The notes under the pieces are model-generated. The model searched no databases, was not told the DNA's origin, and saw only the letters and a list, made by a program, of their open reading frames with translations. This document shows positions 7,968 through 38,984 of a stretch of 64,000 bases of DNA, one piece after another (position 1 is the first letter of the stretch; each line of letters opens with the position of its first letter). The position numbers were made by a program, and so were the translations under genes. The stretch comes from Arachidicoccus rhizosphaerae (lineage in GTDB: Bacteria; Bacteroidota; Bacteroidia; Chitinophagales; Chitinophagaceae). Where the stretch lies: contig NZ_FNQY01000004.1 in assembly GCF_900107765.1 (NCBI RefSeq), positions 186,001-250,000 of the forward strand, read 5' to 3'.

Positions 7968-8079
7968 AAAACCCTCAAAAGCTGCACTTATTATCAGAAG
8001 CTCAGCGCACTACTCCCCATATATTCATGGCCTGATGATTTGCGCCTTGCATATTATAAAACAAATCAACGTTCGTCAC

Positions 8080-8117
8080 TTTATATATCAAAAGTACATT
8101 TATATATAAATAATAAC
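8080..8117 (-). promoter_or_regulatory. PUL promoter/operator site A (upstream of GH43 unit)
   Basis: Read on the minus strand this site contains TTTATATATAAA, then a -7 box TACTTTTG (8089-8096) matching the Bacteroidota TAnnTTTG consensus, then ATATATAAA. It aligns over its length with sites B and C upstream of the other two PUL units. The conserved A/T-rich block sits where a -33 element would be. The match is a little weaker than B to C and needs one inserted base. It predicts a start of transcription near 8084. Confidence 0.65.
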
Positions 8118-8156
8118 TTGCCATAAATTTGCATTATATCATCATATATTATCACA

Positions 8157-8200
8157 AAATGGGCTATTCAAACGATTTATCCGTTTTGAATAGCCCATTT
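8157..8200 (-). terminator. Hairpin terminator after GH140 (end of PUL unit 2)
   Basis: Inverted repeat with arms 8157-8174 and 8182-8200 (AAATGGGCTATTCAAACG and its complement with one bulged base) around a 7-nt loop. It begins 22 nt past the stop codon of the GH140 gene and lies just upstream of promoter site A. It therefore separates the two transcription units. Confidence 0.75.
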
Positions 8201-8222
8201 AAATCAACAAAAAGAGTCATTG

Positions 8223-9707
8223 TCAACCTGCCTTTTGGAGCACCAGTACCCAGTCATTACCATGCCCTTTTTGTCCCGGTGGCCGGGCATCGTAAGTATT
8301 TTCCGTAATCACTGCTTCTTTTGGCGAAATTTCCCCGGTCCTCGGATCGAACCAGCTGATATTAACCTTTTGATGATTTAACTGTAATTCACTGAGGTCA
8401 ACTTTAAATGCTCTGCCGTTCGGCGTATAAAACATGGCATATCCGGGCCCCTTTGTGGCCGCCACGTAATTATATTTCTCCCCCTGATCCAGCACGCAGA
8501 CCGTATCAGGCACCCTGGTTAGATAAGGTTTACTCAACATTAAGGTTTTCAGATAGATCATCTGACCGGCGGCTGTATCCTGAAGCCCCTGTTGCCAGCT
8601 TTTAGTCACGCCGTACGCCCCTGCCAAACCTGTTGACGGATCATAAAACTGCATCACTGCATTCGCTCCATAAGTAAAACCACAGGCACCTGCAAACACA
8701 GACCAGTAAGCATATCTCCTAATGGATGCGGCATCCCATCTCGGCTGTAAGGAGTCATGCAATCCCTGTGGAATCCCTTCATAAGACGGCTCCGCATCCA
8801 GTGTTGGTTTTATTGGCTTTTTCTGATAATCGTCTAATACGTATTTATAATTATCCTCACCATATCTAAGGCTCCCGGATTCATTATCCTGATCATAACG
8901 GCGGTGGCCTGATTGAAATACATTAAAATCCAACCATTCAGCCGTCTGAAACCAGGTAGAGGACTGTGTTCTTCCCCTTGGGTGGAAGCTCATTAACTGT
9001 TGGGGATTTATTGATTTTATAGTTGTCCCGATAGCTTGCCAGATACCTAGAGAATCACTGCCTGGAATATCCCCCCCGTTTAACCAAATCACATTTTTAG
9101 CGCTATGATATCTGTGTGCTAAAAAACGGGCAAACGACGTTGCCTGGTCTGAACTTACTTTTCCTGATTTTACTACAGAGCCCCAAACCGGCACCAAGGC
9201 GACCAACATATGACGGCTGTCCGCTTTTACCACAAGAGAGTCCAAGCCCTGCCAATAATTAAGTATATGACCTCCCTGAGCCGTAGCCGTATCAGGCCTG
9301 CTCAGATCCTTATTGATCAAGGCCGTCCGGCCGTCTGCATTCTCTTCAGCCAGATCATGAATAACCATCACCTGAATCACATTAAACCCTTTGTCTGCCC
9401 TGTCTTCCAGATAGCTGTCTACCTGTCCCTGCCTGAGCTTGCTTAGTATTAACCAGCCGGTATCACCCAGCCAGAAAAACGGCTTCCCGGACTGATCCAC
9501 AAAATACCTGTGATTATCAGACACTTTAATAGGAAACGCAGTCCCATCCTCCTGTTGCGCCTTTTTTGATTCCTTTTGACGGCTTCCGGATTGGCATCCG
9601 CCCAATAACAGTGCAACCGCAGCTGTCGCAAGTCCTGCCTTAACGGATTTTCCCTTTATTTTAGGCTTGAATAACTTTTGTGATACATCGCTGCTCATGA
9701 ATTTCAT
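8223..9707 (-). CDS. GH140-type TIM-barrel lipoprotein (putative apiosidase)
   Basis: A 494-residue lipoprotein (LLLGGC, cysteine 38). Residues about 65-390 form a DUF4038-type TIM barrel (FFWLGDTGWLILSKL, NVIWLNGGDIPGSD with Asp213, TLDAEPSYEG with Glu306). The C-terminal 90 residues (ISWFDPRTGEI, GNDWVLVLQK) match the beta-sandwich usually annotated as a putative collagen-binding domain. This pairing is that of GH140, whose characterised Bacteroides member removes apiose-linked side chains from rhamnogalacturonan II. By analogy Asp213 and Glu306 are the likely catalytic pair. It is the last gene of the second PUL unit, 40 nt after the beta-helix/TIM fusion. Apiosidase function is inferred from family resemblance only. 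Confidence 0.8.
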   Translation of the reverse strand: MKFMSSDVSQKLFKPKIKGKSVKAGLATAAVALLLGGCQSGSRQKESKKAQQEDGTAFPIKVSDNHRYFVDQSGKPFFWLGDTGWLILSKLRQGQVDSYLEDRADKGFNVIQVMVIHDLAEENADGRTALINKDLSRPDTATAQGGHILNYWQGLDSLVVKADSRHMLVALVPVWGSVVKSGKVSSDQATSFARFLAHRYHSAKNVIWLNGGDIPGSDSLGIWQAIGTTIKSINPQQLMSFHPRGRTQSSTWFQTAEWLDFNVFQSGHRRYDQDNESGSLRYGEDNYKYVLDDYQKKPIKPTLDAEPSYEGIPQGLHDSLQPRWDAASIRRYAYWSVFAGACGFTYGANAVMQFYDPSTGLAGAYGVTKSWQQGLQDTAAGQMIYLKTLMLSKPYLTRVPDTVCVLDQGEKYNYVAATKGPGYAMFYTPNGRAFKVDLSELQLNHQKVNISWFDPRTGEISPKEAVITENTYDARPPGQKGHGNDWVLVLQKAG

Positions 9708-9747
9708 AGCTTTTCTTTTAGCAATAATATTTAGTCCTGAGGGCCCA

Positions 9748-12700
9748 TTACTTCTTTAATAGGAAAACAGTATCTCCCTGATCCGCCTGTAAGGTATCGC
9801 CATCTTTTAAGGTAAAGTCCGCTATCACAGCTCCTGACTCAGGATTTATTTTTTCCACCTTATAACGCCCTTTAAAGCCTGGAGCTCCACTTTTTAAAGT
9901 ACTTGCCTTCGGCAGGTAAATAATAAAATTTCCTTTATCATCACCCAGTACATAGCTTTTCCCGGCAGTAGCTGTCAGATCTTTAATATGCATCCCGGTA
10001 GCCGCCGTCAAAAATGAAGTAGCCACCCCTGTTGGTAAATCCGGCAAAGAGCCGCCTGCCATAAAACTGGCCCAGGCAAGTTCAGGTGCGTTTTTGGCAG
10101 AATACATGACTGCTTTATCCGGATATAATTCCCTGTATTCTCTTACTGCCCGATACACCTGTTCAAAATTGGTATTTTTGGGCTTAAACTGCCGCGCCTG
10201 TTGTCTGGGAGCCAGGCTTTGGCCTCCTTTAGGTGCGTAAGCAGATCCGTCCTGCTGATAATACCAGTATCTGATATCAATTATTTTAATCAGTTTATTT
10301 AAATCCGGATCCTTTAATATACTGTCCTGGACATCCTTTGTGGTACTTAAACCAATAAAAGGTGCATTTACCCCCGTTTTATGGTTTTTAATTTCCCAGT
10401 CTCTGATTGTTTCCAGCCAGAACCGGACAAAATGAGTAGGGCCGGTAAATTCTTCACAAATAAACTGTATAACGTTATGTTCTTCCTTAAAATTCTCAAG
10501 ACACTGATCGATAAAAGCCTGATGGAGTTTTCTTCTGTCCGGATTTGTTTCGTCATAAAACTGTTCCGCCATAAAAAGCCTTTTATCCGCCGCATAATTT
10601 ACAGGCTCGGGGAATCCGGTATGATTAATATTATTAACCGGCCGCCATGGGAAATCTGCATAATGCGCTCCCGCTTCAATAATATTATGCTGAAAATAAT
10701 TGTGATGGATTAATACCAGACCTTTTTGATCTGCCAGTTCGGCAAACCTTTTCAACCTGGACCAGTAAAAAAGATTATATTTTGTCAGATCATATTTACT
10801 TAATCCATCCCAGGCAATGCCTTGTCCGCTTCTTGCAAAGGGAAGTTCATAAAATGGCGGCCAGACATCGCCATCCTGACGCCGCACTCTTTCATGGTCG
10901 TCTCTTCGCCTGTCATACCATAAACCATAATTTTGTTCCATCACCAAAATATGATTGTCTTTCATTTGACTGGTGACTGTATCCAGGTTATCGGTAAGAC
11001 CGGTTCCGGTCCTGCCGGGGACAAACCTCGTGATCGCGGGCTTGGCTTTGCTTATAAAATCGCGCTCTACCGTTCCAAACCACCAGGGTGTCTGTTGTCT
11101 GGCTCCTGTCAGCACCACACCGCCTCTTGCAAGCCAGCCATTTTGAAGGGTCATAGGGGTAATGGCGACCGGTTTCGCAGCAGGTTGAATACCGATTTGC
11201 TCTATTGTTTTTACACCTTTTATTGCTACCGGTATCGGATCCGATTTTTCTACAGTTTCAATCCAGTCCTTCATGGTCGTAGCAGCCTGATAAGCTTCCT
11301 TTGTCAGAGCGGCCGCTGCCTGTGCAGTAGGGCTACTGCTGGCTTCTCCCTCAAATGGTTTGAGTCGGGCCTGATTATCCACCTGTTTTCCTAATCTTGA
11401 GGACAGTTGCGCATAAAAAAAGCTTCTGGGTGTGATCCAGTTGTTGGATTCCGCCCAATAACCATCCCCTGCAAATTGTGACCAGGTTCCAAAAGCATAG
11501 TTTTGCGCCGTTGGCGGCTTAGCCACGTTTACCATAGAGGCATAACAGTTCCAAAGCAGGCAATTGGCTGCGTTCCATCCCGCCCCTTGTTCATCCTGAC
11601 CCAAATTGGCAAATTTTATGGTCTGACCGTCCAGGCGAACAATGTCAAAAAGCACACCCGATGCCCAGGAATTTACCGGACCGCTATAACTCAGAGACTG
11701 TTCTGCCTGACACTGTACAAAAGCATTCGGTCCTGCAGCGCAGTAGCCTACAGAGAAATCATGGTAGCCCTTTTCGCTATATAAACGCTGAAATAAGTTC
11801 TGCTGTCCGGTAGTACTGAATACATACCGCCTTTGCCCCCCGACTTCAGAAACAGGATCGGTGGCGATACAGTCCTCTACCGTAAAACGCTGTGCACCTT
11901 CCAGAAGGCTGACGGCAGAACCGGCAAAATACTTAAAGTCAACCCTTCTGACCCATCCATCTGCTGCATTATTTACAACGATGGCCATCCATCTGTGGTC
12001 TTCATCTTTAGGTTGGCTATGGTCAAATGCAGATTCTAACCGGAGGTTCTCAACACCCACCCGGCTTATCCTTCCAGGCCATTTGAAGGTGGCTATCGTG
12101 GCACCCCCATATTTTTTATCCAGGGCTGTAGTTATGGGTGCATCCAGCTCTACCCCTTTACTGGTCACACTTTTTACCCTTCGGCTCCAGAAAATATCTT
12201 CAGCCCCCGCCTTCCAGCCCAGGGCAGAGACACCACCCCCGAAACTGGAAGTGCCTAACTTTTCTATCCATGCATCCGTGCAGGGTCTGTGGATGACAAC
12301 CAGGTCTCCTTTTTTAAAGGCTGCAGGATCCGGAAGGGTCAGAAAAGCACTATTAACAGGTACATAAGGATCCAAAATGTGCACTGCCGGGGCCACAATA
12401 CTGTCTTTTTTCCCCAGAACCTTAATCAGCGGGGCCCTGGTGGTTCCCTCTGCTACGATAACCGTTCCATCTGCCTGCGGCCCCGAACCCCTGAGCACCA
12501 CACCGGATTTATTAATCTCAATGGTGCCATTTACATGATAGGTGCCAGGTGCCAGCAATACGACTCCTCTGAAGCCTGCACTGTCCGCAGGTAGTCCGCC
12601 AACATAATCCAGCGCCGACTGAATCACCCTTGTGGCATCCTCCTTTTGAACAGGAACCAATACTTTAACAGGCAGGGCCTTAGCAATAGCTTCATCTGAA

Positions 12701-12978
12701 GCCATATATCCACAATAAGAAAAATCAACTATTCTATTCCCCAGAGAATCGGCATGGTAAATGAAGCCCCCTGATTTATTCCACTCTAATGGCGGTATGG
12801 GTTTTGCCTCCTCATTATTTTTTTTATTTTGTCCATAACCAAGACTCATGACGAAAATCAGGACACAACTCAGGCTGGATTTTGCCACCGAAGACCTACA
12901 AATAGCTAAAGCAGGAATGATACATTCCTGCTTTAGTTTTTTTGTACCCATCTTCATTTTGTAGCGCTTTTGATTCAT
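9748..12978 (-). CDS. Beta-helix / TIM-barrel fusion protein, putative two-domain pectin enzyme
   Basis: A 1076-residue secreted protein of unknown function. Residues about 60-560 look like a right-handed parallel beta-helix of the pectin-lyase type (VVLLAPGTYHVNGTIEINK, GVVLRGSG, GRISRVGVENLRLESA, FKYFAGSAVSLLEGAQRFTVEDC). Residues about 640-1000 look like a TIM barrel (LVLIHHNYFQHNIIEAG, VIQFICEEFTGPTHFVRFW, KIIDIRYWYYQQ). Residues 1005-1076 form a small beta-sandwich ending GDTVFLLKK, similar in style to the C-terminus of the adjacent GH140 protein. I recall similar proteins carrying DUF labels such as DUF6298 but cannot verify this. The architecture suggests a polysaccharide-binding or cleaving helix joined to an exo-glycosidase. 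It lies between the PL1 genes and GH140 in one operon. Confidence 0.68.
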   Translation of the reverse strand: MNQKRYKMKMGTKKLKQECIIPALAICRSSVAKSSLSCVLIFVMSLGYGQNKKNNEEAKPIPPLEWNKSGGFIYHADSLGNRIVDFSYCGYMASDEAIAKALPVKVLVPVQKEDATRVIQSALDYVGGLPADSAGFRGVVLLAPGTYHVNGTIEINKSGVVLRGSGPQADGTVIVAEGTTRAPLIKVLGKKDSIVAPAVHILDPYVPVNSAFLTLPDPAAFKKGDLVVIHRPCTDAWIEKLGTSSFGGGVSALGWKAGAEDIFWSRRVKSVTSKGVELDAPITTALDKKYGGATIATFKWPGRISRVGVENLRLESAFDHSQPKDEDHRWMAIVVNNAADGWVRRVDFKYFAGSAVSLLEGAQRFTVEDCIATDPVSEVGGQRRYVFSTTGQQNLFQRLYSEKGYHDFSVGYCAAGPNAFVQCQAEQSLSYSGPVNSWASGVLFDIVRLDGQTIKFANLGQDEQGAGWNAANCLLWNCYASMVNVAKPPTAQNYAFGTWSQFAGDGYWAESNNWITPRSFFYAQLSSRLGKQVDNQARLKPFEGEASSSPTAQAAAALTKEAYQAATTMKDWIETVEKSDPIPVAIKGVKTIEQIGIQPAAKPVAITPMTLQNGWLARGGVVLTGARQQTPWWFGTVERDFISKAKPAITRFVPGRTGTGLTDNLDTVTSQMKDNHILVMEQNYGLWYDRRRDDHERVRRQDGDVWPPFYELPFARSGQGIAWDGLSKYDLTKYNLFYWSRLKRFAELADQKGLVLIHHNYFQHNIIEAGAHYADFPWRPVNNINHTGFPEPVNYAADKRLFMAEQFYDETNPDRRKLHQAFIDQCLENFKEEHNVIQFICEEFTGPTHFVRFWLETIRDWEIKNHKTGVNAPFIGLSTTKDVQDSILKDPDLNKLIKIIDIRYWYYQQDGSAYAPKGGQSLAPRQQARQFKPKNTNFEQVYRAVREYRELYPDKAVMYSAKNAPELAWASFMAGGSLPDLPTGVATSFLTAATGMHIKDLTATAGKSYVLGDDKGNFIIYLPKASTLKSGAPGFKGRYKVEKINPESGAVIADFTLKDGDTLQADQGDTVFLLKK

Positions 12979-13037
12979 ACTTTAAATTTACACTTTGGTG
13001 ATTAAATCAGCTAAGGCAACAGCAAAAACAGGTAATC

Positions 13038-14717
13038 TTAAGGTCTCACTCTTTTTAAAGGAACAAGACTGTTTAAATAGACTTCGATATTGGTATAGCC
13101 GTCACCGTTTTTGGCTAACTGACTGGCATCGGAAGCGTCATTTGGATTTAAACCGTGCTTTGTCTCATAGCTGTCAGGGATACCGTCCCGATCTGCATCT
13201 GCATAGGGCGTTCCCTTGTAGGTCGGATAGCCTCCTACCTGACTAATATCACTAATGATTCCTTTCTTATACGAATCTGCCGGCATCCGGCGTTTGATGT
13301 ACGGTGTCACCCCTGATTTGCCCCCTTCAGTATATACAATCTGACCTGTTTTTACTTCTTTTATAACACGGGTATCTACCGGGTCACGAACTGGCAAAAA
13401 CGAGCCTACATTATTCAACACATAATCATAACTTTTCTTTGCACTCATGATACTGACGTTTCCCTTTAACGGGAAAGGCTTATCCACTTTAACAGATGCA
13501 GTAAACTCCCCTGCATTGGGCATATCTTCAATCTGCACACCGCCGTCCCAGTTGTCTTTTGTCACCTGCTTACTCCCCACCACATAATTCCCATGCACAT
13601 AGGCTTTTCCATAATGTTTCACCCGTTGTTTATCTCTTCCCGCTTCCGGCTTTAAGATTCTATGGGTAATGGGTTCATCCTTAGGTGTAATGGGACCGGG
13701 TTTATAATAGTTATTGATAAAGTTATAAAAAGAATGATCATCTCCGCCATCCACACTTCTGTTCCACCAGTTGAATATAACATTATTGACGAAACCAAAA
13801 CTCCCATACATACCAACAGAAGGATTACGGGCTACATTATTAGCCCACAGATTGCGCATAAAGGTACTGTTCAAACCGCCTAAGGTGCTTCCAAATGCGT
13901 GATTATAAGTATCTAACCCTTCTGAAAATATGGAGTTCTGGATGGTTACATTTACAGTCGGCATTTTTTCTTGTTTCATGCCGCCCCTGTCATATACATG
14001 TCTGTATATGGACATATTTTCATCTAATCCCCAGCTGGCTGAAACGTGGTCAATCATGATATTTCCCACCGGATTGCCGCCCAAAGCATCATCACGCCTT
14101 CCGACATCCGTGGCGCCGCGTCTAAAACGCATAAAACGAATCAACACATCGTGCGTATTAATCCAGACTGACTCACCGGCAATGCAGATACCGTCACCAG
14201 GAGCCGATTGTCCTTCAATCGTTACATAGGGAGCCCGTATAATTACCGGGCTTTTTAAATGGATAATTCCTGCGACATTAAATACAATGGTTCTCGCACC
14301 TCCCTTTTCGCAGGCTTCTCTGAATGTACCTGGCCCGCGGTCTTCCAGACTGGTGACAACATATACCTTTCCGCCTCTTCCGCCGGGCGTATAAGCGCCT
14401 CCTCCCTGGGCACCCGGGAAGGCAACGATGCTCGCCTGTTTCAGATCCTCAGGCTTAGAGGCCCATGGAACATAAGGCTTGCCTTGCTGGGCTTCTTTTT
14501 CTACAATTGGTAATGCCTTTGCCCAGGCCTCATCGGAGCGCTTTTGTTCAACGGCTAATGCGCTGTCTGATTTTGCCTGAACAGCAGGCGGTATTTTAGG
14601 ATACTGCGCTTTTGCAGCAGCCCCCATCATTAAAAAGGAAACCGCCAACAGAATATTTTTGCGCACAAATCCACTATTAAAAGAATTTGTCTGAGACAAA
14701 TTAAAAGAATTATTCAT
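13038..14717 (-). CDS. PL1 family pectate lyase (paralogue 1)
   Basis: A 559-residue secreted lyase. After a signal peptide ending near AAKAQ and a helical linker, the PL1 helix starts at VAFPGAQGGGAYTPGGRGGK. Hallmarks include GPGTFREACEKGG, TIVFNVAGIIHL, VTIEGQSAPGDGICI, IMIDHVSASWGLDEN and the NNYYKPGP block common to Bacteroidota PL1 proteins. The Asp of IDHVSASWGLDE probably binds calcium, and ARNPSVG probably carries the catalytic arginine. The C-terminus (DADRDGIPDSYE, GLNPNDASDAS, NGDGYTNIEVYLNS) is a thrombospondin type 3-like calcium motif. PL1 enzymes cleave polygalacturonate by beta-elimination. It is closely related to the upstream gene, so the pair arose by tandem duplication. 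Confidence 0.92.
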   Translation of the reverse strand: MNNSFNLSQTNSFNSGFVRKNILLAVSFLMMGAAAKAQYPKIPPAVQAKSDSALAVEQKRSDEAWAKALPIVEKEAQQGKPYVPWASKPEDLKQASIVAFPGAQGGGAYTPGGRGGKVYVVTSLEDRGPGTFREACEKGGARTIVFNVAGIIHLKSPVIIRAPYVTIEGQSAPGDGICIAGESVWINTHDVLIRFMRFRRGATDVGRRDDALGGNPVGNIMIDHVSASWGLDENMSIYRHVYDRGGMKQEKMPTVNVTIQNSIFSEGLDTYNHAFGSTLGGLNSTFMRNLWANNVARNPSVGMYGSFGFVNNVIFNWWNRSVDGGDDHSFYNFINNYYKPGPITPKDEPITHRILKPEAGRDKQRVKHYGKAYVHGNYVVGSKQVTKDNWDGGVQIEDMPNAGEFTASVKVDKPFPLKGNVSIMSAKKSYDYVLNNVGSFLPVRDPVDTRVIKEVKTGQIVYTEGGKSGVTPYIKRRMPADSYKKGIISDISQVGGYPTYKGTPYADADRDGIPDSYETKHGLNPNDASDASQLAKNGDGYTNIEVYLNSLVPLKRVRP

Positions 14718-14794
14718 AATTTATTTAGATTCGAAAACCGGATAGAAAATTTTTTCTATTCATTTTTCGGTTTATAATTTATTGCTTAGGCCAC

Positions 14795-14876
14795 CTGAAA
14801 ACTCAATACAGCGTACATCCGGAAAAAGTTTTCAGAAAGCCTGTGTTTCTCTTTTTCGGGTCAAAAGAGAAACACA
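14795..14876 (-). terminator. Intercistronic hairpins between the two PL1 genes
   Basis: Two hairpins lie in the 227-nt gap after the 14945 stop codon. One has 9-bp arms (14795-14803 and 14827-14835, CTGAAAACT/AGTTTTCAG). The other has perfect 14-bp arms (14842-14855 and 14863-14876, TGTGTTTCTCTTTT and complement) with loop TCGGGTC. They could terminate part of the transcription or stabilise the 3' end of the upstream cistron. Confidence 0.6.
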
Positions 14877-14944
14877 TTACTTTCAACATCAAAACTTACT
14901 TTGCGGCCTATAATCGGCCACGCATTATTCAAACAAAACAAAAT

Positions 14945-16618: not shown

Positions 16619-16914
16619 TAATTAATTTTGACTAATTTTGTTTTTTAAATTTGTTACGATTTTCAACTGATCTACAACCAATACCAGGGTACTCCCGGGA
16701 ACTTATCCAATTGCAGCAGGATACAAAGTTCTTTATTCGGTTCAGTCGGGCTCAAAGCCAACCATCACATCTTATCTAATCTAATACAAATAGGGAAGCG
16801 CTATATAAACCGGCACTTTCACTAAATAATTTTGTTGATTTTCCGCTTATAATCTATCAAGTCAACAAAGGAATCATATGGCTCGCAATCTATGTTTGAA
16901 TTGATTAACCTATT

Positions 16915-17592: not shown

Positions 17593-17773
17593 TGCTTTTT
17601 AATTTTAATTGGAGGGAAAACAAATGTGGAAAAGCCGCTTGGAGCCCCCTCGTCACTTACTTAACACACATTTGTTATTTTGAATCCCCGATTGTTCAGA
17701 CCTTTAATATTTAATAATAACGCGATTTTTAATGTAGATTTCTTTTCGGTTAAAACAACAGGACTAATTCTCG

Positions 17774-17813
17774 ATATTTATATGTCAAAGTTAATTTTAT
17801 ATATAAATATAAC
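17774..17813 (-). promoter_or_regulatory. PUL promoter/operator site B (upstream of DUF3826-PL1 unit)
   Basis: On the minus strand the 40-nt site reads GTTATATTTATATATAAAAT followed by the -7 box TAACTTTG (17786-17793) and ACATATAAATAT. It aligns without gaps to site C before susC, with about 34 of 40 positions identical. ATATTTATAT and ATATAAATAT at its two ends form an inverted repeat flanking the -7 box, suggesting an operator. The rest of the 17593-18015 gap holds a 5' leader of about 185 nt and the terminator of unit 1. Confidence 0.72.
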
Positions 17814-17958
17814 TTTCCTTATTATTTTCATAAGATTGTAGAAAATTATCATAATCATACACATTCAGGACATTTACCCGGAATTGAGCGATGTCGTGAA
17901 AACCTTCAGATTTGTCATACAACCGCTAAAAACTACAAATCAATATCTTATAAAATAC

Positions 17959-17991
17959 AACTACCCGTCAATTTGAGCATTGCGGGTAGTT
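17959..17991 (-). terminator. Hairpin terminator after GH2-malectin gene (end of PUL unit 1)
   Basis: Arms AACTACCCG (17959-17967) and CGGGTAGTT (17983-17991), extended inward by CAAT/ATTG past one bulge. It starts 25 nt beyond the stop codon of the gene ending at 18016 and lies before promoter site B. Confidence 0.75.
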
Positions 17992-18015
17992 AATGGATTT
18001 ATATGCAAGAAATGC

Positions 18016-21822: not shown

Positions 21823-21872
21823 AAGATAAAAACACGAACCTGTTTACTATTCCCGTTACTTATAAAAAATGC

Positions 21873-24779: not shown

Positions 24780-24823
24780 AAATAATCATTTCTGTAATAC
24801 CACAAAGTTTCATGCCTGCCAAA

Positions 24824-26479: not shown

Positions 26480-26498
26480 TATCTAAGTTATAAAAGGA

Positions 26499-29450: not shown

Positions 29451-29578
29451 ATAATTCAATCGTTTATAAGATTTATTTGATTCCTTAAAATTAAAATACC
29501 ATGACCTTGTCCAACTGGTACAGCAAATAAGCTTCCTTCCTGCCAATAGTGGTGAATCACTACATATTATGAAAATAG

Positions 29579-32119
29579 TTACTGGTCAATGTCCACCCCA
29601 ATGGCTATATTTACTTTACGCGTCATGGAGCTACCCCTGGCATCTTTAACGGTAAAATCAAAGCCACCCAGTTTGGTATTCTGTCCTTTATTTATATCCG
29701 GCGTAAATATCAATTGCCCATCTCGCTCGATTTTGACCCTCCCGTTTAAAATATGAGTCACCGTAAATTGAGGGGCCTTCTGATACCCCACCGCGAGTTT
29801 CTTCAGGTCAATATATACAGGTCCTCCCTGCGCACTTGAATAGTGTGCATGTGCCATCCAGTCTAAATAATCATCCAGATTGGTAAACCCGTCCCCATCC
29901 GGATCAGCATTGCTTTCGCTGCTGTCATTTTTTGCGGAATGCGGGTTGAGCCCCCGAGCGATTTCCCACCAGTCTGGCAGACCATCCTGGTCCGTGTCCC
30001 AGTTGTCTGAACGATGAGTAGTGGGATAATCCTCGTAACCACCGGCATCAGCCACCTTATCAGGAAAGCCTTTTTTATGAGTATAACTGCCTGTTACGGA
30101 AGTCACACCTTTTAAGGTTTCCGAAATAATACGCTGATCATGCTCATCCAGTCCGCCGGCATTGCAGCCTACATCGGACAGCACATCTTTATAAGCGTCT
30201 TCGGCTGTTTGTGTGGTCACATAGGACGGGAAAAAAGGTTGATCCACATAGGTCGCGTAACTGCTGGTATCGCCATGGCTGTGACTAATTTTCCTCCCGG
30301 CCTGCTGACTTGACAGGTCAAAGTACCCCGGCATTATATTACCTGCAAAGAAACAACGCTGCATCCCCAGGCCAACGCCCTCATGCTGTGCATTAAAAGC
30401 ATAAAAAAAGTCTGTTCCCGGACCGGGTTTATAGTAATTGCCAACAAAGTTTACTTCATGCGCGCCACCGTCAGTGGCACGGTGCCCCCAGTTATACACG
30501 ACATTATTTCTTATGTCCATTCTGCCGCCATAATGGCCGTCTACCAGTCCTCCGCCCAGGCTCCAGTTCCTGCCGTAACAATCGGCCAGCAGGTTATGAT
30601 GAAAGCTTCCGATATCTCCGCCAATTGTTGCGGCAAATCCGTGTTCTTTACCCTTTGGGTAATTTTTATGTCCCGCGGCATTTAAAGCCTCAGAGATAAG
30701 CGTCCTTTGCAGGGTGATATTGTGCGCTCCCCTGGAACTAAAAGACTCGTCTTTTGTCCAACTGATAGAGCAGTGATCTATAATACTATGATCAGCTCCT
30801 GTCAGCCCCATTCCGTCATAAGTAGGCCCGTCTCCGACCCGTACGCGAACAAAACGGACCATATCATCATTGCCGGTAACACCAAAAGGGGCAGACCGAA
30901 TACAAATTCCTTTGCCGGGCGCGGTCTGCCCTGCAACGGTTACATAAGGAGTACTGAGCACTAGCCTGGATTTTAATTCAATCACCCCACCTACATTAAA
31001 AATGATGACCCTTGGTCCGGAACTATCCATTACCGCTGCCCTCAGACTACCCGGCCCGTCGTCGTTTAAATTCGTGACAGCAACGACCTTTCCGCCTCTG
31101 CCACCACGGGCAAAACGCCCGTATCCTTCCGCATCTGGAAATGCCAGCTGCCTCAGGCGAAATTCCCATACAAGACCTTTAATGGTCTTATTGCCAAATA
31201 CCTCATCTACTCGCCAGTAATAAGTATCCAGACTATTCAGCTTTGTTAACGTAAAACTCGTATCTGCGGCCGCGGCACTCCCTTTAAAACAGGGAGATTT
31301 AGTACCTGCAGTAGCTACCTGTGCGGAATCCGTACCAAAATAGATTTCATGAGAAAGCGCTCCTTGTGCGGCCTGCCATTTTAAAAGACTGTTACCATCC
31401 TTACTGATCTGAATATGTTCATCTCTGTTAGCAGGCAAAGGCGATCTGGACTGTAAGGCGGGATTTATACCATCCAGTTGAAAGCCATTCAGGATTATTT
31501 TATGATAAGATGCATTACCGCTACCATCTGCCACAAACCTTACAACAATGTCCTTTCCGGATATCACGTTTAAACCAAAAACAGCCACGGCGCAGTCCTC
31601 TACCCTGGATGCGCGGATAGTAGGATGCAGCCCTGAAATTACCTTTTTATCATCTACATAGATATCCAAGGGGCAAGGATCTGATTCATTTAACTGATCG
31701 GTTAAATTATGGTAGGTGATCAACGTATGCTTACCCGGTGTCAATCCCCTGATACGAAGCCGGATTTCTTCTGGCTGACTCGACTTGCCATCGCTCGCCT
31801 GGCGAACCATAAGCCCGTCATCTGAAAACTTCGCCTTGGCCTCGCCCCTCACTCCGGCCTTAAACCAGGACGCATTTAACTTTTGGTCCCCTGCCGCAGA
31901 GACGATAAAATCAATCCCTTCCCTTCTTAACGTATCCGGTCCTCCGTTAACCACTTCCCAGGGGGTATAACCAAAGGCATTCACTTCAGCAGTTTTTCTG
32001 CCAGACATATTAAAATCAACTTTAACCACGGTCTGCTGCGCACTTAGCTGAAAGCTACTGAACACAACGGCCCATAGGACAAAGCATAAAGGTTTTATTT
32101 TGATGGGTGAGCGGTGCAT
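29579..32119 (-). CDS. Multidomain PL1 pectate lyase with N-terminal carbohydrate-binding domains
   Basis: An 846-residue secreted enzyme. After a signal peptide (FSSFQLSAQ), residues 30-215 form a malectin/CBM-like beta domain (VKVDFNMSGRKTAEVN, YHKIILNGFQLDGIN) and 235-325 a fibronectin type III-like domain (HEIYFGTDSAQVA, DTYYWRVDEVFG). The PL1 helix (about 330-700) has FPDAEGYGRFARGGRGGK, GPGSLRAAVMDSSG, VTVAGQTAPGKGICI, SIIDHCSISWTKDE, YGRNWSLGGG and NYYKPGPG. A TSP3-like calcium segment follows (DWDTDQDGLPDWWE, DGDGFTNLDDYLDW), then a C-terminal cadherin-like beta module. It is the first enzyme after SusD and probably acts early, near the cell surface, cutting pectin for the SusCD transporter. 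Location is inferred. Confidence 0.9.
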   Translation of the reverse strand: MHRSPIKIKPLCFVLWAVVFSSFQLSAQQTVVKVDFNMSGRKTAEVNAFGYTPWEVVNGGPDTLRREGIDFIVSAAGDQKLNASWFKAGVRGEAKAKFSDDGLMVRQASDGKSSQPEEIRLRIRGLTPGKHTLITYHNLTDQLNESDPCPLDIYVDDKKVISGLHPTIRASRVEDCAVAVFGLNVISGKDIVVRFVADGSGNASYHKIILNGFQLDGINPALQSRSPLPANRDEHIQISKDGNSLLKWQAAQGALSHEIYFGTDSAQVATAGTKSPCFKGSAAAADTSFTLTKLNSLDTYYWRVDEVFGNKTIKGLVWEFRLRQLAFPDAEGYGRFARGGRGGKVVAVTNLNDDGPGSLRAAVMDSSGPRVIIFNVGGVIELKSRLVLSTPYVTVAGQTAPGKGICIRSAPFGVTGNDDMVRFVRVRVGDGPTYDGMGLTGADHSIIDHCSISWTKDESFSSRGAHNITLQRTLISEALNAAGHKNYPKGKEHGFAATIGGDIGSFHHNLLADCYGRNWSLGGGLVDGHYGGRMDIRNNVVYNWGHRATDGGAHEVNFVGNYYKPGPGTDFFYAFNAQHEGVGLGMQRCFFAGNIMPGYFDLSSQQAGRKISHSHGDTSSYATYVDQPFFPSYVTTQTAEDAYKDVLSDVGCNAGGLDEHDQRIISETLKGVTSVTGSYTHKKGFPDKVADAGGYEDYPTTHRSDNWDTDQDGLPDWWEIARGLNPHSAKNDSSESNADPDGDGFTNLDDYLDWMAHAHYSSAQGGPVYIDLKKLAVGYQKAPQFTVTHILNGRVKIERDGQLIFTPDINKGQNTKLGGFDFTVKDARGSSMTRKVNIAIGVDIDQ

Positions 32120-32226
32120 CTATTATCTTTTATTATTCCAGTTAAATTCAAAAAACTCCTTCAGGTGGACGGGATTAATATCAGCTGCTTACATCTATTT
32201 AATCCGGCATATTGTCCTCCAAAACA

Positions 32227-32269
32227 AATATTTCTGGACAGAATACTTAATTCTTCTGCCAGAAATATT
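32227..32269 (-). other. Hairpin in the SusD-PL1 intergenic region
   Basis: Perfect 11-bp arms AATATTTCTGG (32227-32237) and CCAGAAATATT (32259-32269), with a nested AGAAT/ATTCT pair inside. It lies about 50 nt past the susD stop codon, within the 198-nt gap before the PL1 gene. A hairpin here could act as a partial terminator or protect the susCD message, making transporter mRNA more abundant than enzyme mRNA. That role is inferred. Confidence 0.55.
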
Positions 32270-32317
32270 GCTACAATTACGAAAATCAATAAACCCTATA
32301 ATCAAACATTAAATCTT

Positions 32318-34285
32318 CTAATTTTGATAATCGAAACTACCTGTTGCCCCTGAATAATCATTCCAACCTTGGTTTTGTTCCAACCAGCTGTTTGTACTGA
32401 GTACAGAAGCAGGCAAGCCCGACAGATAATAGTTCGGCTGAAATTCAATGGTAGTAGCCGTACTATTTACCTGATCCCAAGGTTTATCAAGCGGCGTCAT
32501 GACAAAGTGTGCCTGATAGATGGCCTTCAGGCTATCCAGCTGGGCTTTAAAATCAGCAGCATCCGGATCAATCAGAATACTGCGGTCCTCAGCTGTCAAC
32601 GGGTCACTGTCTGAATAGTCTTTTGCCTGCCAGTAATAACCTTCACGGGCAGTTCCGTTGATAGGCGTTAATCCCAATTTAGAGACCGAACTGCCGCTCT
32701 TATCAGTATTATCATACAACATCCAGCGTTGAATGTCCCAGAACCTTTTTCCTTCATAGGCCAGCTCTACCCTTCTTTCATATAATACAGCTTCAATGGC
32801 CTGATATTTAGTACTTAAGTTTCCTACACCATAGTTATTATCTGAAGGAATACCTACTCTGGCTCTTATTTTCCCAATATATTCAATAGCATGACTAATA
32901 TCGCCGGTGGCCGCATAACACTCTGCAATATTGAGCAGTAACTCTGCATAACGATATTCTATGATACTCGTATTAGAATAGGAATAGCCGGTGCTGTCCG
33001 CATTAGGATTTGAATTTTTCCGAACAATAGCCGGACTATTGGTCTGATTAGTCCCATAATAAGTGGCTGAACCAGATTCAGTTTTTTTCCAACGGTAAAA
33101 CCAGGTCGTTTTGTTTTCATTACCTTTTATGCCCCACTTTTCTCCTGAGAATTCAAAAGTCCGGTAAAATCTGGGATCACGATTTTCAAAGAAGAAAGTA
33201 TCTACATATCCATTTGCTGCCGTTGGTCTCTGCCCGCTAGCCAGAGGGAATAAATCCAACATTTGTTTGGTCGCTGATAATCCGCCATCCCCATCATAAT
33301 CCTTTGGTCGTAATTGATCTTCCCATGTATTGTTATACCCTTCTGATGAAGTGGAGGAACTGCTGAATAAAAACACCATAATAGCTTCCTTATTAAAGGC
33401 CGTATTGCCGGTGAAGGCCATATTTGACCAGTCCTTCGCACTTGAGCCATACAGTCCGTAACCGGCGGCTGTTAATTTTGTTTCCGCATCCAGACCTGCC
33501 TGTAAGGCTGCCTTCCATTTTTCACTACCCTGATTATCCCAATCTTTATTAAATAAAGGACTTGCTGCAGTTAGTAAAACCCTGCTCTTCATGGCAATGG
33601 CGGCAGCCGCGGTAAACTTGCCGTAATTATCACTTAAATCATCCCACACCATAGGCAGCAACGCTGCAGCTGAATCCAGATCCTTGATAATCTGCGCAAA
33701 ACACTCCGAAGAAGAGGATCTTGGTGTCTGAATGGATGCATCCGTAGTACTGTTATTCTGAACACTCAACACCAGCGGCACTCCCCCATAAACCCTGACC
33801 AAATCAAAATATTGCAATGCCCTCAGCATATAAGCCTGACCTTTAGCCTCCTTTTTAAAATCCGCAGATAAAGGATCGGAAACAGGCTCTTCCATCTTTT
33901 CCAGAAGATCATTACAGTACCTGATGCGCGTATAAGGGTTATTGGTTACACTGGAGGAAGTAGTTCCATAATAAGTGTCTGCATCAGTTGCATTGACGAG
34001 CGTCTTCGTGGAATTAATATAGTCAGGTATCGTCCCTCCTATTTCTTCCGTCATATTGGACCTGTTCGTATTATAGAGTCCGATCACATTCTGCAATGGA
34101 TTCTTATAACTCACAAAATAATAGTTGTATAACCGGGCAATATACCACTCTGTCAGCTCTTCATTGGAGAATACCTGATCTTCCCCGTATTGGTTATAAG
34201 GCTGCATATCCTCCAGGAATTTTTTGCTGCATCCCGTCGTAATGACCAGCAAGACCCCGATCAGTAAATAAAATATCTTTTTCAT
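32318..34285 (-). CDS. SusD/RagB-family outer-membrane glycan-binding lipoprotein
   Basis: A 655-residue lipoprotein with lipobox ITTGC (cysteine 19) and the family start CSKKFLEDMQPYNQY. SusD features include RIRYCNDLLEKMEEP, KGQAYMLRALQYFDLVRVYGGVPLVL, AAAAIAMKSRVLLTAASPLF, ELLLNIAECYAATGDISHAIEYIGKIRARVG and LYERRVELAYEGKRFWDIQRWML, with helical repeats throughout. It should cap the SusC channel at the cell surface and bind the incoming oligosaccharide. It follows susC by 32 nt. Length is above the usual 500-600 residues, mainly through loops rich in Ser and Thr. Ligand is not predictable from sequence but the neighbours point to pectin. Confidence 0.95.
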   Translation of the reverse strand: MKKIFYLLIGVLLVITTGCSKKFLEDMQPYNQYGEDQVFSNEELTEWYIARLYNYYFVSYKNPLQNVIGLYNTNRSNMTEEIGGTIPDYINSTKTLVNATDADTYYGTTSSSVTNNPYTRIRYCNDLLEKMEEPVSDPLSADFKKEAKGQAYMLRALQYFDLVRVYGGVPLVLSVQNNSTTDASIQTPRSSSSECFAQIIKDLDSAAALLPMVWDDLSDNYGKFTAAAAIAMKSRVLLTAASPLFNKDWDNQGSEKWKAALQAGLDAETKLTAAGYGLYGSSAKDWSNMAFTGNTAFNKEAIMVFLFSSSSTSSEGYNNTWEDQLRPKDYDGDGGLSATKQMLDLFPLASGQRPTAANGYVDTFFFENRDPRFYRTFEFSGEKWGIKGNENKTTWFYRWKKTESGSATYYGTNQTNSPAIVRKNSNPNADSTGYSYSNTSIIEYRYAELLLNIAECYAATGDISHAIEYIGKIRARVGIPSDNNYGVGNLSTKYQAIEAVLYERRVELAYEGKRFWDIQRWMLYDNTDKSGSSVSKLGLTPINGTAREGYYWQAKDYSDSDPLTAEDRSILIDPDAADFKAQLDSLKAIYQAHFVMTPLDKPWDQVNSTATTIEFQPNYYLSGLPASVLSTNSWLEQNQGWNDYSGATGSFDYQN

Positions 34286-34317
34286 AATTTATAATCTATA
34301 ATTAGAAATTTATTGTT

Positions 34318-37300
34318 TTAGAATCCAATATTTACACCTAAGGCCCAGGTACGCAAAGTAGGATAACCTACATCTGCTGCATCGTACATATTTCTGAACT
34401 TTTTAGGATATGGATTATATAAATCCCACAAATTGTTACCAGAGAGGAAGAAACGTGCGCTTTTCAACCGGGCCTTATTGACCAGCTTAGTTGGCATCGT
34501 ATATCCCAGACTCAGGGTTCTGATGACCATTCTAAAAGTTGGCAGCATAAAGAAATCGGATTGTGAACCGCCGAAATTATCATAATAGGCAATGTTGGGG
34601 TATTTACCATTTGGATTGGTATCTTCATCATACATGTCTACCAGATAAATAGGTTGTCCCCACATCGCATTTGTGCTGGAGGTTCCTTGTTTTACATAAT
34701 CCAGAAAACGTGTTCCACCCCAGGAAGTGGCCACCTGCATGTATAAGGACAGGCTCTTCCAACCTAAATTGATATTGGTGGAAAGTCCGTAACTTCTGTT
34801 GGATTTTTTAAGTTTCACATAATCCTCATCAGCTTCAATCCGACCATTGGGTCCTGCAATTGTTTTGCTGTTTGCGTCCAGGTCACCGGCTACATCTTCA
34901 TAAACCAGCATACCTTTTTTCAAACCCGATTTATCAGTAATACCCAAAAAGTTCGGAGCTGCTCCATCCACGCCGGAACTGGCCGCATTCTGGGACAGAT
35001 AGTTCCAGTAATTGTCAATATCGGCATCTGTTCTCAGCATACCATCTCCGCCCGAAGTCTGTTTCCAGGTCTTGAAACCCCATACCGGCACGATACCATA
35101 ATTCCCCATTGCTCTTCTGGTGGTAGATTCTGAAGGATAGGCAAATGCCTGATCATAATATTTAGTCACTTTATAATTGCCCAGTCCTGTATTGACACCA
35201 ATGGAATAGCTGAAATCTCCGACATGATCTTTCCAGGTAATGGACAATTCTGAGCCCCAGGCATTAACAGCGGCATAGTTCTGTTCTGCAAAGGCTCCGC
35301 CAACGGATATAGGTGTATTTATAGCCTTGGACATATCCGTTAACATATCTGAAGTAGAATTAAAATACTGATCAAAAGTTACTGATAATCGGTTTTTTAA
35401 GAAATCCATATCTAATCCGAAGTTTCTTTGCAGCGTTCTGTCCCAGTGAACATCCCGGTTAGGCGTCACCCCGGGGGTCATGCCAGTGGTATATAAACCG
35501 CCGTCACTCCCGAAACCAAACCCTTTATCTGTCTGTGCTGTATATACCTGCAGCCATTTCCAGGCTTTAATATTATTATTACCCGTTATACCCCAGGATG
35601 TCCTGAACTTCAGAAAGTCCATCCATTGAATATTATTTTTGAAAAAAGGCTCGTCAGAGATTACCCAGCCAGCTGACACTCCGGGAAAAAATCCCCAATA
35701 ATTCTCCGGAGCAAATACTGTTGAAGCGTCTGTGCGGAACACAAAGTCAAACAGATATTTATGTTTATAATTATAACTGGCACGGCCCAGATAGGACAGA
35801 CTACCACTTTCATATTTATAAGTGATAGTATTTCCATCATTTAGTGTACCTGCGCTTACAGAAGTACCGTTGTAGATACCTGCAGTAGGATTATCATATA
35901 TCTGATATCGATCTTCCAGCTCATTGGTCGATTTTTCCACTGAAGCCATCGCTGTAATATTATGATCACCGAAGCTCCTGGTATAATTTATGAAAAAGTT
36001 GGACTGCTCGCTTTTAGAGGTTGTATTGTCATATGTCACACGGGAATTTGCGGTATTATTGGTCGCCTTAAATTTACCATCCTCTGTCTCACTGAATAAA
36101 TGCATGCCAGCAGAAGCAATCGTGGTTGCCTGATACAGCATCTGCGGCATCATTATCTGTTCGGTATTGGTAGCAGCCTGTGATAAACCATAATTCAATT
36201 TAAAGCTGAGGCCTTGTATAAATGGAACATCGTAGGCTAAAGAGAAGTTTACATTATAATTGAAATTCTTATTAGTTGTTTTAGATCCGTTATTCAATAA
36301 TGCATAATAGTTCCAGTTACTTAAGGAATTATTACCCTTAACATTACCGGCTCTGTTAGAACCTAAAGGCGGAGAAACATATACATCCTGGCCATCTACA
36401 TTATATATCCATGGAATATATTTAGGCATATGCAATAAGACGCTATAGTCATTTTGTTCACCACCATTTGCATATCCGTCACTAAAGTTGATCTTGGTAA
36501 AAGATTTTTCAACATTGGTATTGGATGCCGCTATGGTCGCCCCCAGATGTAACCCGCTCATTAATTTCACATCGGCTCCCCCGCGGTAGGTCCAGCGATC
36601 AAAATCCTGTTTTCCTAAGTTTGCGCCTTGTGTATAATAGGATGCACCCATAAAATAAGTAGCATTATCCGATCCTCCACTGATATCCAAAGAGTGCTGC
36701 ATGGTATTAGCAGCTCTCCAATCGTTGCCTAACCAATCATAATTCAGCGTATCCATCATATTTAATTCATCCGCTGAATACTGATAATCGTCGCTACGGC
36801 CCAGCGCCTTGTTGAAACTGTTGGAATATTCACCATATTGCCTGGCATTCATCACCTTACTATGGCTAACAGCATCATTGCGTTCAAATTTTCCACTATA
36901 AGTTACTTTAGGCGCACCAATCTGGCCTCTTTTAGTTTTAACAATGACAACACCCTGAGAAGCCCTGGAACCATAAATGGCGGCACTTGCATCCCGAAGA
37001 ACAGTAATGCTTTCCACTTCAGAGAGATCCAGCTGATTGAAGCGGTCCAGCGTCGGAAGACCTGTTTGCGGGTCCACCTGCAACACATCGTCAATAACAA
37101 TCAAAGGTGCCTCATTTCCACCATCCTTGCCCCAGTTAAACTGCTGACGGATGCTGAGTGTGGCCATTTCACCCGGCCTTTGTGCTCCGCCGGAAACATT
37201 TAAGCCAGGCACCTGCCCACGCAACATCTCAGAAATAGAGGCGGCAGGCATATCCTCGATCTGCTTCAAATTAACCGTTGCCATGGATCCTGTGATATCC

Positions 37301-37659
37301 CTTTTATTTTGAGTTCCATAGCCCACAACAACGACATCATTTAAATCAGCAGAAACTGTGGAATCCAATCGAATCGTAATAAAATCTTCTGAACCTACCT
37401 TTTGCTGCACTCTTTTATAACCAATAAAAGAAACCACTAAAACCGAGTCTGTAGGCAGTAGTTTAATAGAAAAAGTGCCATCGTATTTGGTACTCACATT
37501 ACTGGGTCTGCCCTTGGCACTTATGATAGCACCAGGGAGATGTTCCCCGGATTTTCCATCAACAACCACCCCATTAACCGTCCGCTCTTGTGCAAAGAGC
37601 GCAGTACAGCAAAGGGTGAGCAGGAATAGAAATACAAATTTCATGTTTTGTCTACTCAT
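34318..37659 (-). CDS. SusC/RagA-family TonB-dependent outer-membrane transporter
   Basis: A 1113-residue TonB-dependent transporter. The signal peptide ends CCTALFAQ. Residues 27-105 form a carboxypeptidase-regulatory-like domain (VNGVVVDGKSGEHLPGA, YDGTFSIKLLPTDSVLVVSF). The plug follows (DVVVVGYGTQNKRDITGSM, ISEMLRGQVPGLNVSGG, SITVLRDASAAIYGSRASQG), then a 22-strand barrel. It has no N-terminal secretin/TonB (STN) domain, so signalling through an anti-sigma factor is unlikely. It imports oligosaccharides captured by SusD. Two ATG codons lie five residues apart. The first is used here, after an A-rich stretch. It heads PUL unit 1 with a 5' leader of about 210 nt. Confidence 0.96.
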   Translation of the reverse strand: MSRQNMKFVFLFLLTLCCTALFAQERTVNGVVVDGKSGEHLPGAIISAKGRPSNVSTKYDGTFSIKLLPTDSVLVVSFIGYKRVQQKVGSEDFITIRLDSTVSADLNDVVVVGYGTQNKRDITGSMATVNLKQIEDMPAASISEMLRGQVPGLNVSGGAQRPGEMATLSIRQQFNWGKDGGNEAPLIVIDDVLQVDPQTGLPTLDRFNQLDLSEVESITVLRDASAAIYGSRASQGVVIVKTKRGQIGAPKVTYSGKFERNDAVSHSKVMNARQYGEYSNSFNKALGRSDDYQYSADELNMMDTLNYDWLGNDWRAANTMQHSLDISGGSDNATYFMGASYYTQGANLGKQDFDRWTYRGGADVKLMSGLHLGATIAASNTNVEKSFTKINFSDGYANGGEQNDYSVLLHMPKYIPWIYNVDGQDVYVSPPLGSNRAGNVKGNNSLSNWNYYALLNNGSKTTNKNFNYNVNFSLAYDVPFIQGLSFKLNYGLSQAATNTEQIMMPQMLYQATTIASAGMHLFSETEDGKFKATNNTANSRVTYDNTTSKSEQSNFFINYTRSFGDHNITAMASVEKSTNELEDRYQIYDNPTAGIYNGTSVSAGTLNDGNTITYKYESGSLSYLGRASYNYKHKYLFDFVFRTDASTVFAPENYWGFFPGVSAGWVISDEPFFKNNIQWMDFLKFRTSWGITGNNNIKAWKWLQVYTAQTDKGFGFGSDGGLYTTGMTPGVTPNRDVHWDRTLQRNFGLDMDFLKNRLSVTFDQYFNSTSDMLTDMSKAINTPISVGGAFAEQNYAAVNAWGSELSITWKDHVGDFSYSIGVNTGLGNYKVTKYYDQAFAYPSESTTRRAMGNYGIVPVWGFKTWKQTSGGDGMLRTDADIDNYWNYLSQNAASSGVDGAAPNFLGITDKSGLKKGMLVYEDVAGDLDANSKTIAGPNGRIEADEDYVKLKKSNRSYGLSTNINLGWKSLSLYMQVATSWGGTRFLDYVKQGTSSTNAMWGQPIYLVDMYDEDTNPNGKYPNIAYYDNFGGSQSDFFMLPTFRMVIRTLSLGYTMPTKLVNKARLKSARFFLSGNNLWDLYNPYPKKFRNMYDAADVGYPTLRTWALGVNIGF

Positions 37660-37863
37660 TTTTTAATTTTTTCAAAGCAGTGATAAAATGATTTTAATTT
37701 TTAATATTTATGGAAAAACCTGGAATCCCCCTGAAATAAAAACATTGCTCAAATGCCAAAATCTCTAACAATTGCCACTTTATTTAGCTTTTAAAAGCAG
37801 CTTTTGATCTACAATTCCTTAACAATTATTTACCCGGTATTAGGGGTTTCAAAAACAAATTGA

Positions 37864-37903
37864 ATATTTATAAGTCAAAGATAAATTCATATATAAAATA
37901 AAC
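37864..37903 (-). promoter_or_regulatory. PUL promoter/operator site C (upstream of susC)
   Basis: On the minus strand the site runs GTTTATTTTATATATGAATT, then the -7 box TATCTTTG (37876-37883), then ACTTATAAATAT. It aligns gap-free with site B. Transcription should start near 37870, giving susC a 5' untranslated leader of about 210 nt. The remainder of the 37660-38341 gap is strongly A/T-rich. I see no gene in it, only a small palindrome GCTTTTAAAAGC in the leader and the terminator of the neighbouring HAD gene. Confidence 0.72.
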
Positions 37904-38277
37904 ATTGTCGATTATTTACATTATTTTATACAAAACTTTCCTTTTTTATTAATTTTTTGATATCAAATCTAAATTCACAGCCAGCAGGCACACAAAATAA
38001 TGACCGTTAATTAGCTGAACATTATTTACTGAATTAAAAGAAATTATACATTTATTTTAATCATATTTATAAAACTCAAACCATTGTTAAATAAACAGTT
38101 AGAAGAATTCCTTTCAAAAATTATAAAAAAAATGAAAATTAGTTTCAGAAAAGATTAACAATCAATTCAATAAAGCTTTAAGATGGCAAAACGGAAAGAA
38201 AGCAGATTTTGAAGTCAGATTTCACCAGCAGAGGGCAAAGTCTATTGGCGCATCCTATATGGATTGATATGTAAAAA

Positions 38278-38917: not shown

Positions 38918-38938
38918 GCAACAAATTTACTACAAATA

Positions 38939-38982
38939 TGCATATTATTGCACATACCTGCATTATTTTGCATATTTTTGCA
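38939..38982 (+). promoter_or_regulatory. Five TGCA repeats at exact 10-bp spacing (probable DeoR operator)
   Basis: TGCA begins at 38939, 38949, 38959, 38969 and 38979, ending two bases before the DeoR start codon. Another TGCA is at 38917, overlapping the first codon of the divergent HAD gene. The flanks are A/T-rich. One repeat per helical turn would place bound protein on one face of the DNA. Autoregulation by the adjacent DeoR protein is the natural inference. Confidence 0.6.
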
Positions 38983-38984
38983 AT

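Follow-up and report, generated by a model that had tools for sequence, protein, structure and literature searches.

We found that three gene units of a probable polysaccharide utilization locus in Arachidicoccus rhizosphaerae, here called units A, B and C, are each headed by a conserved promoter/operator element, and that these elements share a direct repeat which in all likelihood allows a single activator of the AraC family, a 291-amino-acid protein predicted to combine a cupin with an HTH_18 domain, to switch on the three units together. The elements lie in a stretch of 64,000 nucleotides (contig NZ_FNQY01000004.1, positions 186,001 to 250,000; G000:C5:186001-250000 in our numbering, C5 being the home contig), the whole of which we refer to as the window and within which unprefixed positions are counted. 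The evidence consists of the repeat itself, its spacing, its conservation and its partnership with the regulator across genera. An original prediction, made from the letters of the window, had proposed that one regulator coordinates the three units; very probably it does, to judge from the sequences compared here, and the sites are specific to this locus. The prediction had placed that regulator on a 40-bp A/T-rich site, which is not borne out: the signal common to other genera is a 21-bp direct repeat upstream of this site together with a TTTG box.

Read directly in the sequence, the sites proposed at 8080-8117 (A), 17774-17813 (B) and 37864-37903 (C) all lie on the minus strand, each ahead of minus-strand genes. 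Sites B and C are identical at 34 of 40 positions without a gap, as had been estimated, and site A aligns gap-free over a 29-bp core, with a shift of 1 bp upstream of it. The TAnnTTTG box is present in all three (Table 1). A degenerate 29-bp pattern derived from the three sites themselves, with up to three mismatches allowed, matches exactly three times in the window and not once in 100 shuffles; in the whole genome (4,867,350 bases) it again has exactly three matches, against one for the reversed control pattern. Model R1, built from 13 Arachidicoccus sites with A, B and C among its training members, gives only these three below E = 1e-12 in the home genome, the next match having E = 0.03 (best 150 of 7362 candidates scored). 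Given the three genome matches to the pattern and the gap to the next R1 match, there is no sign of the many equally good sites elsewhere that the original prediction had named as speaking against it. Its further statement that the leaders are unrelated outside the sites holds downstream, where mean identity is 0.30, but fails upstream, where identity is 0.64 at -47 to -12 and 0.34 at -75 to -50 (12 pairs, the two promoters of a pair being from one genome). Likewise, the inverted repeat described around the -7 box is present in the letters, but its best 8-bp arms lie at differing registers between sites; because the register is not fixed, we regard it as a weak feature and have discarded it as a defined operator.

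Just upstream of each A/T-rich site lies a direct repeat, TGATAAT…TGAAAAT, which had been missed; its half-sites are 21 bp apart and it ends beside the -33 region. Alignment of 15 sites (column statistics on 14) brings the half-sites out as two conserved upstream blocks, each with a near-invariant G. When all windows and lags were compared across 12 sites, lag 21 ranked first, with an identity of 0.722 (mean 0.355, standard deviation 0.072). If TAnnTTTG is taken as -12 to -5, the half-sites fall at about -71 to -57 and -50 to -36. In its spacing and its position beside the -33 region, the repeat has the geometry of an AraC-family operator. Two direct half-sites about 21 bp apart beside the promoter are an operator layout of the AraC/XylS family, and the regulator is predicted to bind them; the placement closely resembles that of I1 and I2 at E. 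coli araBAD. As for the promoter, the available excerpt of PMC9723704 gives TAnnTTTG at -12 to -5 as the Bacteroidota sigma-A promoter box, which the -7 box of each element resembles; the elements differ from that promoter at -33, where no TTTG is visible in A, B or C and where a half-site of the predicted activator ends instead (PMC9723704).

The statement of the original prediction that the locus has no hybrid two-component, SusR or sigma/anti-sigma gene is supported, none being found in a Pfam scan of 29 open reading frames (ORFs) of the window (to 55.9 kb) and 20 ORFs of the left flank. The locus does have a probable regulator of its own, as an AraC-family gene adjoins the far end of unit A, outside the window. 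This candidate (C5:161711-162586, plus strand; L033:11711-12586) is found at the left edge of the locus, beyond the last gene of unit A, and encodes 291 amino acids. Residues 209-286 match PF12833 (HTH_18), the C-terminal DNA-binding domain of the AraC/XylS family with its two helix-turn-helix motifs, at 64.4 bits (cut-off 33.6), and the N-terminal part, where a cupin of sugar-binding type would be looked for, matches the cupin family PF07883 at 25.5 bits, below its cut-off of 27.2, and PF02311 at 22.2 bits, above its cut-off of 21.1. The protein is not a hybrid two-component regulator: it is 291 residues long and only cupin/AraC-binding and helix-turn-helix families matched it.

Further evidence comes from other genera. 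Species genomes were scanned with an alignment of the regulator, and the best 80 of 112 loci encoding a relative were kept. They comprise 66 loci of relatives at 47-61% identity (L091-L156), 13 distant controls at 34-43% (L157-L169), and Arachidicoccus ginsenosidivorans itself (L090), which was kept out of the set of relatives. With a match threshold set by permuted matrices for about one false match per set, an untrained seed consensus gave 110 matches in 52 of the 66 relative loci, rising after iteration to 169 matches in 65. Of the 169, 131 are intergenic and at most 450 bp before an ORF on the same strand, against 239 of 5000 random positions, and 13 lie inside ORFs. Of 90 non-redundant sites from other genera, 85 have TTTG at the same offset, which is also that of the Arachidicoccus elements. 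The bases between repeat and box are not conserved in those genera, and the A/T-rich core is therefore an Arachidicoccus feature. At a score of at least 14, the repeat is found in 62 of the 66 relative loci and in three of the 13 distant ones. When sites from five groups (Flavobacterium, Cytophagales, Parapedobacter, Sphingobacterium and Mucilaginibacter) were kept out of training, a matrix built on 62 others exceeded the permuted maximum in all 24 loci of those groups, with the caveat that the match list had first been collected with all 66 loci. In eight relatives compared (L091 to L150), the DNA-binding half of the protein is 68-75% identical to the home regulator and the N-terminal half 41-52%. 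At least three different homologues of the present gene cluster occur in 39 of the 66 relative loci, and in 27 the regulator gene lies between homologues of DUF3826 and GH2-malectin, which is the place of element B here. Because of this shared company and position, the regulator appears to be an old part of the locus that is placed elsewhere in Arachidicoccus.

The home elements are recognized in turn by a model that contains none of them. When 104 kb of the home contig were scored with an ungapped matrix of the 90 other-genus sites, with no Arachidicoccus member, the three highest values were those of B (28.2), C (14.7) and A (14.3), and the fourth match scored -2.9. Among 200 permuted matrices, one reached 14.3 anywhere, none reached 28.2 and none gave three matches of 14.3; 2 Mb of A+T-rich random sequence of spacer composition held one match of at least 14.3 and none at 28.2.

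Within the genus we compared six genomes: the home genome (G000), G275, G018, G116, G187 and G235. The same unit-head sites are retained in three of the five others (G275, G018 and G116), and regulator orthologues occupy the same locus position in these three at 93%, 92% and 64% identity, respectively. No site matching the core pattern with up to three mismatches was found in G187 or G235, where the best match to the regulator is only 36% identical. Thus, orthologue and all three sites occur together in four of the six genomes. The SusCD block of G116 is placed immediately upstream of the head of unit A rather than apart from it, and each block is still headed by a site.

Several results weigh against the proposed regulator. 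Half-sites of A and C are degenerate. At home the gene is distant from the sites, so that its adjacency to them is loose. Three distant controls (L163, L166 and L167, 36-38% identity) carry a repeat match of 17.7-23.2, and with three of 13 distant loci matching, the repeat is not exclusive to the orthologue group; operators of this sort may also serve related regulators. In G235 the other-genus matrix picked up two sites of the repeat type within the same locus (C12:39147 and 24575), yet no AraC orthologue was found in that 98%-complete assembly. These sites also removed G235 from consideration as a natural knock-out, a cluster with neither sites nor regulator. It is possible that the G235 regulator was lost in an assembly gap, as the contig ends inside the gene cluster. 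Finally, a covariance model of 47 other-genus sites (R2) performed poorly: genus-wide, only C of the three was among the matches, at E = 0.42 and behind two unrelated matches in the home genome (best 150 of 5809 candidates scored), and in the 104 kb it placed C first (E = 0.008) and B third (E = 0.38), with A not listed. The whole-genome scan with R2 thus gave no independent confirmation of A, B or C; in our reading, local alignment and composition correction cost this model its signal.

Taken with these reservations, the following course of events is proposed. A dimer of the 291-residue regulator would bind the two direct half-sites, which at 21 bp, or two helical turns, would lie on one face of the DNA, with the proximal half-site abutting the -33 region. 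A ligand, probably a sugar freed from rhamnogalacturonan II, would trigger the regulator, and the ligand-bound protein would then recruit RNA polymerase and turn on units A, B and C, about 28 genes, together. Binding, dimerisation, response to a ligand, activation and the extent of each transcript are all predictions. The A/T-rich core would be a genus-specific addition to an older promoter, either an easily melted segment or the site of a second protein.

Another explanation is that this core is the operator of a second, unlinked regulator, such as a repressor acting over the -7 box, which coordinates the units instead of the AraC-family protein. Promoters of the same genome share 0.84 identity in the core and 0.64 in the repeat, falling to 0.34 farther upstream and to 0.30 in the leader; comparison across species gives 0.91, 0.70, 0.38 and 0.44, respectively. 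The core is thus more conserved than the repeat in both comparisons, although the core values are inflated because the Arachidicoccus sites were collected with the core pattern. With three copies in the genome it is not a general promoter type, and other genera have no conserved bases in its place. On the other hand, the repeat and the AraC-family regulator extend far beyond the genus and the core does not, the inverted repeat within the core has no fixed register, and there is no candidate protein. We consider this explanation unlikely. The 40-bp site itself seems to be mainly a core promoter, a TAnnTTTG box within an A/T-rich stretch special to Arachidicoccus. A second control might instead act alongside the AraC-family regulator. 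In such a case the Arachidicoccus promoters would be two-input switches that join an ancient AraC operator, apparently common to several Bacteroidota families, to a near-invariant A/T-rich stretch, about 32 bp long, that covers the -7 box and the start site, the second control being exerted by another DNA-binding protein or by DNA melting, while the AraC gene left its former position at element B for the edge of the locus. We put this forward tentatively, as possible rather than probable.

A different AraC-type protein, either an unlinked hybrid two-component system or a paralogue, could bind the repeat, leaving the linked AraC gene incidental. For hybrid two-component regulators of Bacteroides, the available excerpt of PMC3878776 likewise reports direct repeats with an average of 21 bp. 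The regulator has 22 matches in the home genome, of which four fall in ORFs of 1357-1466 amino acids, the size of such systems, and G235 has its two sites without a detected orthologue. Nevertheless, we find it quite unlikely, as the repeat was met in loci fetched solely for this regulator, in the proportions of relatives and distant controls given above, and often in the same gene cluster.

The regulators encoded beside unit C, one of DeoR type (38883-39734) and one of AraC/DJ-1 type (43031-44014), both lie within about 6 kb of element C, but their distribution across the genus does not match that of the sites. In G275 and G116, both of which retain the three sites, the DeoR-type protein has no match at E <= 1e-40, and its G018 match contains two stops. 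The AraC/DJ-1-type protein persists at 63% in G187, a genome with no site, and is split into two pieces in G275. The G116 cluster contains an orthologue of neither. That either protein binds the sites is largely refuted by this mismatch and seems to us very doubtful. The G275 pieces overlap (G275:C1:836076-837049), and because of this split and the stops in G018 the two genes may be decaying in relatives. The notion that the resemblance arose by chance, or survives from duplicated promoters that share no control, has next to no likelihood: A+T-rich sequence does ease weak matches and the covariance model does lose much of its signal, but the shuffles and genome-wide counts, the retention of sites across species while their flanks diverge, the site retained with a relocated SusCD block in G116 and the match to the other-genus matrix all oppose it.

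The genus genomes hold some further sequences of interest. G018 has a fourth full element (L067:10159-10236; G018:C1:1608159-1608236; R1 E = 2.2e-12, in the training set) ahead of a TIM-barrel gene resembling those of xylose isomerases; a gene similar to oligogalacturonate lyase is read divergently from that gene. The element would mark an extra member of the regulon in that species. A candidate at G018:4058144 (three mismatches) was dropped, having no direct repeat. The head of a fourth unit in G116 (G116_D, G116:C1:2012246-2012326) is core-like at three mismatches and has an altered -7 box and a LacI-type palindrome in place of the direct repeat; neither the lag test nor model R1 includes it. 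Outside the genus, a pattern scan of 294 genomes of the family gave 16 single matches (two or three mismatches) against 23 for the reversed control, and these were dropped as being at chance level.

The surroundings of the regulator gene also bear mention. About 0.5 kb beyond the intact gene in G116 is a short stretch (G116:C1:1953199-1953306) that matches the C-terminal 36 residues of the regulator at 64% identity, perhaps a trace of duplication. Between the home AraC gene and a divergent GH106 gene, outside the window, stands a palindrome TGCAATCGATGCCG (G000:C5:161509-161522; L033:11509-11522), which is kept there in G018 and G116 and has one change in G275. The palindrome also stands before the gene that opens the G235 cluster (C12:13475) and, carrying one change, near G116_D, and in G116 two copies precede a gene that resembles, judged from its letters, a LacI-family regulator (L078:1639-2679). 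A LacI-type repressor acting above the AraC gene is a possible reading of these sequences.

Unit A comprises 16 genes that start at 7967 and extend leftwards as far as C5:162721, some 31 kb past site A and mostly outside the window; unit B has five genes (17592 to 8223); and unit C, with SusC, SusD and five enzyme genes, runs from 37659 to 18016. By strand and adjacency, some 28 genes would therefore be under common control, rather than the 16 or so originally proposed. The distance from -7 box to start codon is long in all three, at 121, 193 and 216 bp (7968-8088, 17593-17785 and 37660-37875), and the intervening sequences are mutually unlike. A third strong hairpin (z = -3.12) lies beyond the end of unit A, in addition to the two listed in Table 1. 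The locus encodes SusC, SusD, an apiosidase, DUF6298 (which we take to be GH143), a BT_1020-like propeller, GH141, GH95, GH78-type rhamnosidases, GH2, a SASA esterase and an alpha-galacturonidase, and genes for GH106 and GH127 are located beyond the AraC regulator. It thus holds the SusC/SusD pair and the enzyme set of a rhamnogalacturonan-II polysaccharide utilization locus, and probably is one, on the assumption, drawn from general knowledge of these families, that their substrate is rhamnogalacturonan II.

Table 1. Positions in the window of the three promoter/operator elements, their parts and two hairpins.
Feature	Position	Strand	Evidence
Element A, whole conserved promoter/operator, head of unit A	8077..8156	-	Pattern, alignment; R1 E = 2.6e-13 (A in training set)
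Element A, distal half-site GTGATAATATATGAT	8141..8155	-	Site alignment, lag test
Element A, proximal half-site ATGCAAATTTATGGC, 21 bp downstream of distal	8120..8134	-	Site alignment, lag test
Element A, A/T-rich core; -7 box TACTTTTG at 8089-8096	8078..8111	-	Pattern, conservation
Element B, whole conserved promoter/operator, head of unit B	17774..17853	-	Pattern, alignment; other-genus matrix 28.2, best in 104 kb
Element B, distal half-site ATGATAATTTTCTAC	17838..17852	-	Site alignment, lag test
Element B, proximal half-site ATGAAAATAATAAGG	17817..17831	-	Site alignment, lag test
Element B, A/T-rich core; -7 box TAACTTTG at 17786-17793	17775..17808	-	Pattern, conservation
Element C, whole conserved promoter/operator, head of unit C	37864..37943	-	Pattern, alignment; other-genus matrix 14.7, second in 104 kb
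Element C, distal half-site AGGAAAGTTTTGTAT, degenerate	37928..37942	-	Site alignment, lag test
Element C, proximal half-site ATGTAAATAATCGAC	37907..37921	-	Site alignment, lag test
Element C, A/T-rich core; -7 box TATCTTTG at 37876-37883	37865..37898	-	Pattern, conservation
Hairpin, possible terminator, end of unit B to element A	8150..8220	-	z = -4.76; absent from intrinsic-terminator consensus scan
Hairpin, possible terminator, end of unit C to element B	17940..18015	-	z = -4.76; absent from intrinsic-terminator consensus scan

Rhamnogalacturonan II is among the most complex plant polysaccharides. For loci of this kind in many soil and water Bacteroidota, we propose a small AraC-type protein with a precise operator, whose spacing rule is testable. 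The matrix can be used to find regulons in other genomes, and the locus offers an example of a regulator gene that changes place while its predicted sites stay at the heads of the units. We found no report of this regulator-operator pair in the open-licence literature.

Three known systems, each described here from available excerpts of the papers cited, invite comparison. The first is CgrA (ZGAL_3159) of Zobellia galactanivorans, which regulates a cluster of carrageenan genes (PMC5698469). Like the home regulator it belongs to the AraC family and is encoded within the Bacteroidota polysaccharide locus that it controls, where it acts positively and is needed for normal growth on the glycan; the glycan is a different one, the excerpts describe no operator, and the likeness is by description, not by protein comparison (PMC5698469). 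The second, RhaR, is an AraC-family activator of rhamnose genes in Bacteroides and shares, again by description, the family, a related substrate and predicted 21-bp direct repeats; it differs in that its reported targets are genes of rhamnose catabolism (PMC3870299). Hybrid two-component regulators are the third, represented by BT0981 in the rhamnogalacturonan-induced Bacteroides locus BT0977-1030 (PMC3878776, PMC11253607), for which prediction yielded no motif in PMC3878776. They have an AraC-type DNA-binding domain and their predicted operators are the direct repeats mentioned above (PMC3878776), and one of them, 12aw, is the best solved-structure match to the home regulator, over the last 130 residues only. 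Such proteins are large sensor kinases with receiver domains (PMC3878776, PMC11253607), however, in contrast to a regulator of 291 residues with a putative cupin. AraC-type control of a polysaccharide locus is therefore already known from CgrA (PMC5698469), and the genus-specific A/T-rich core may be a new variation on it.

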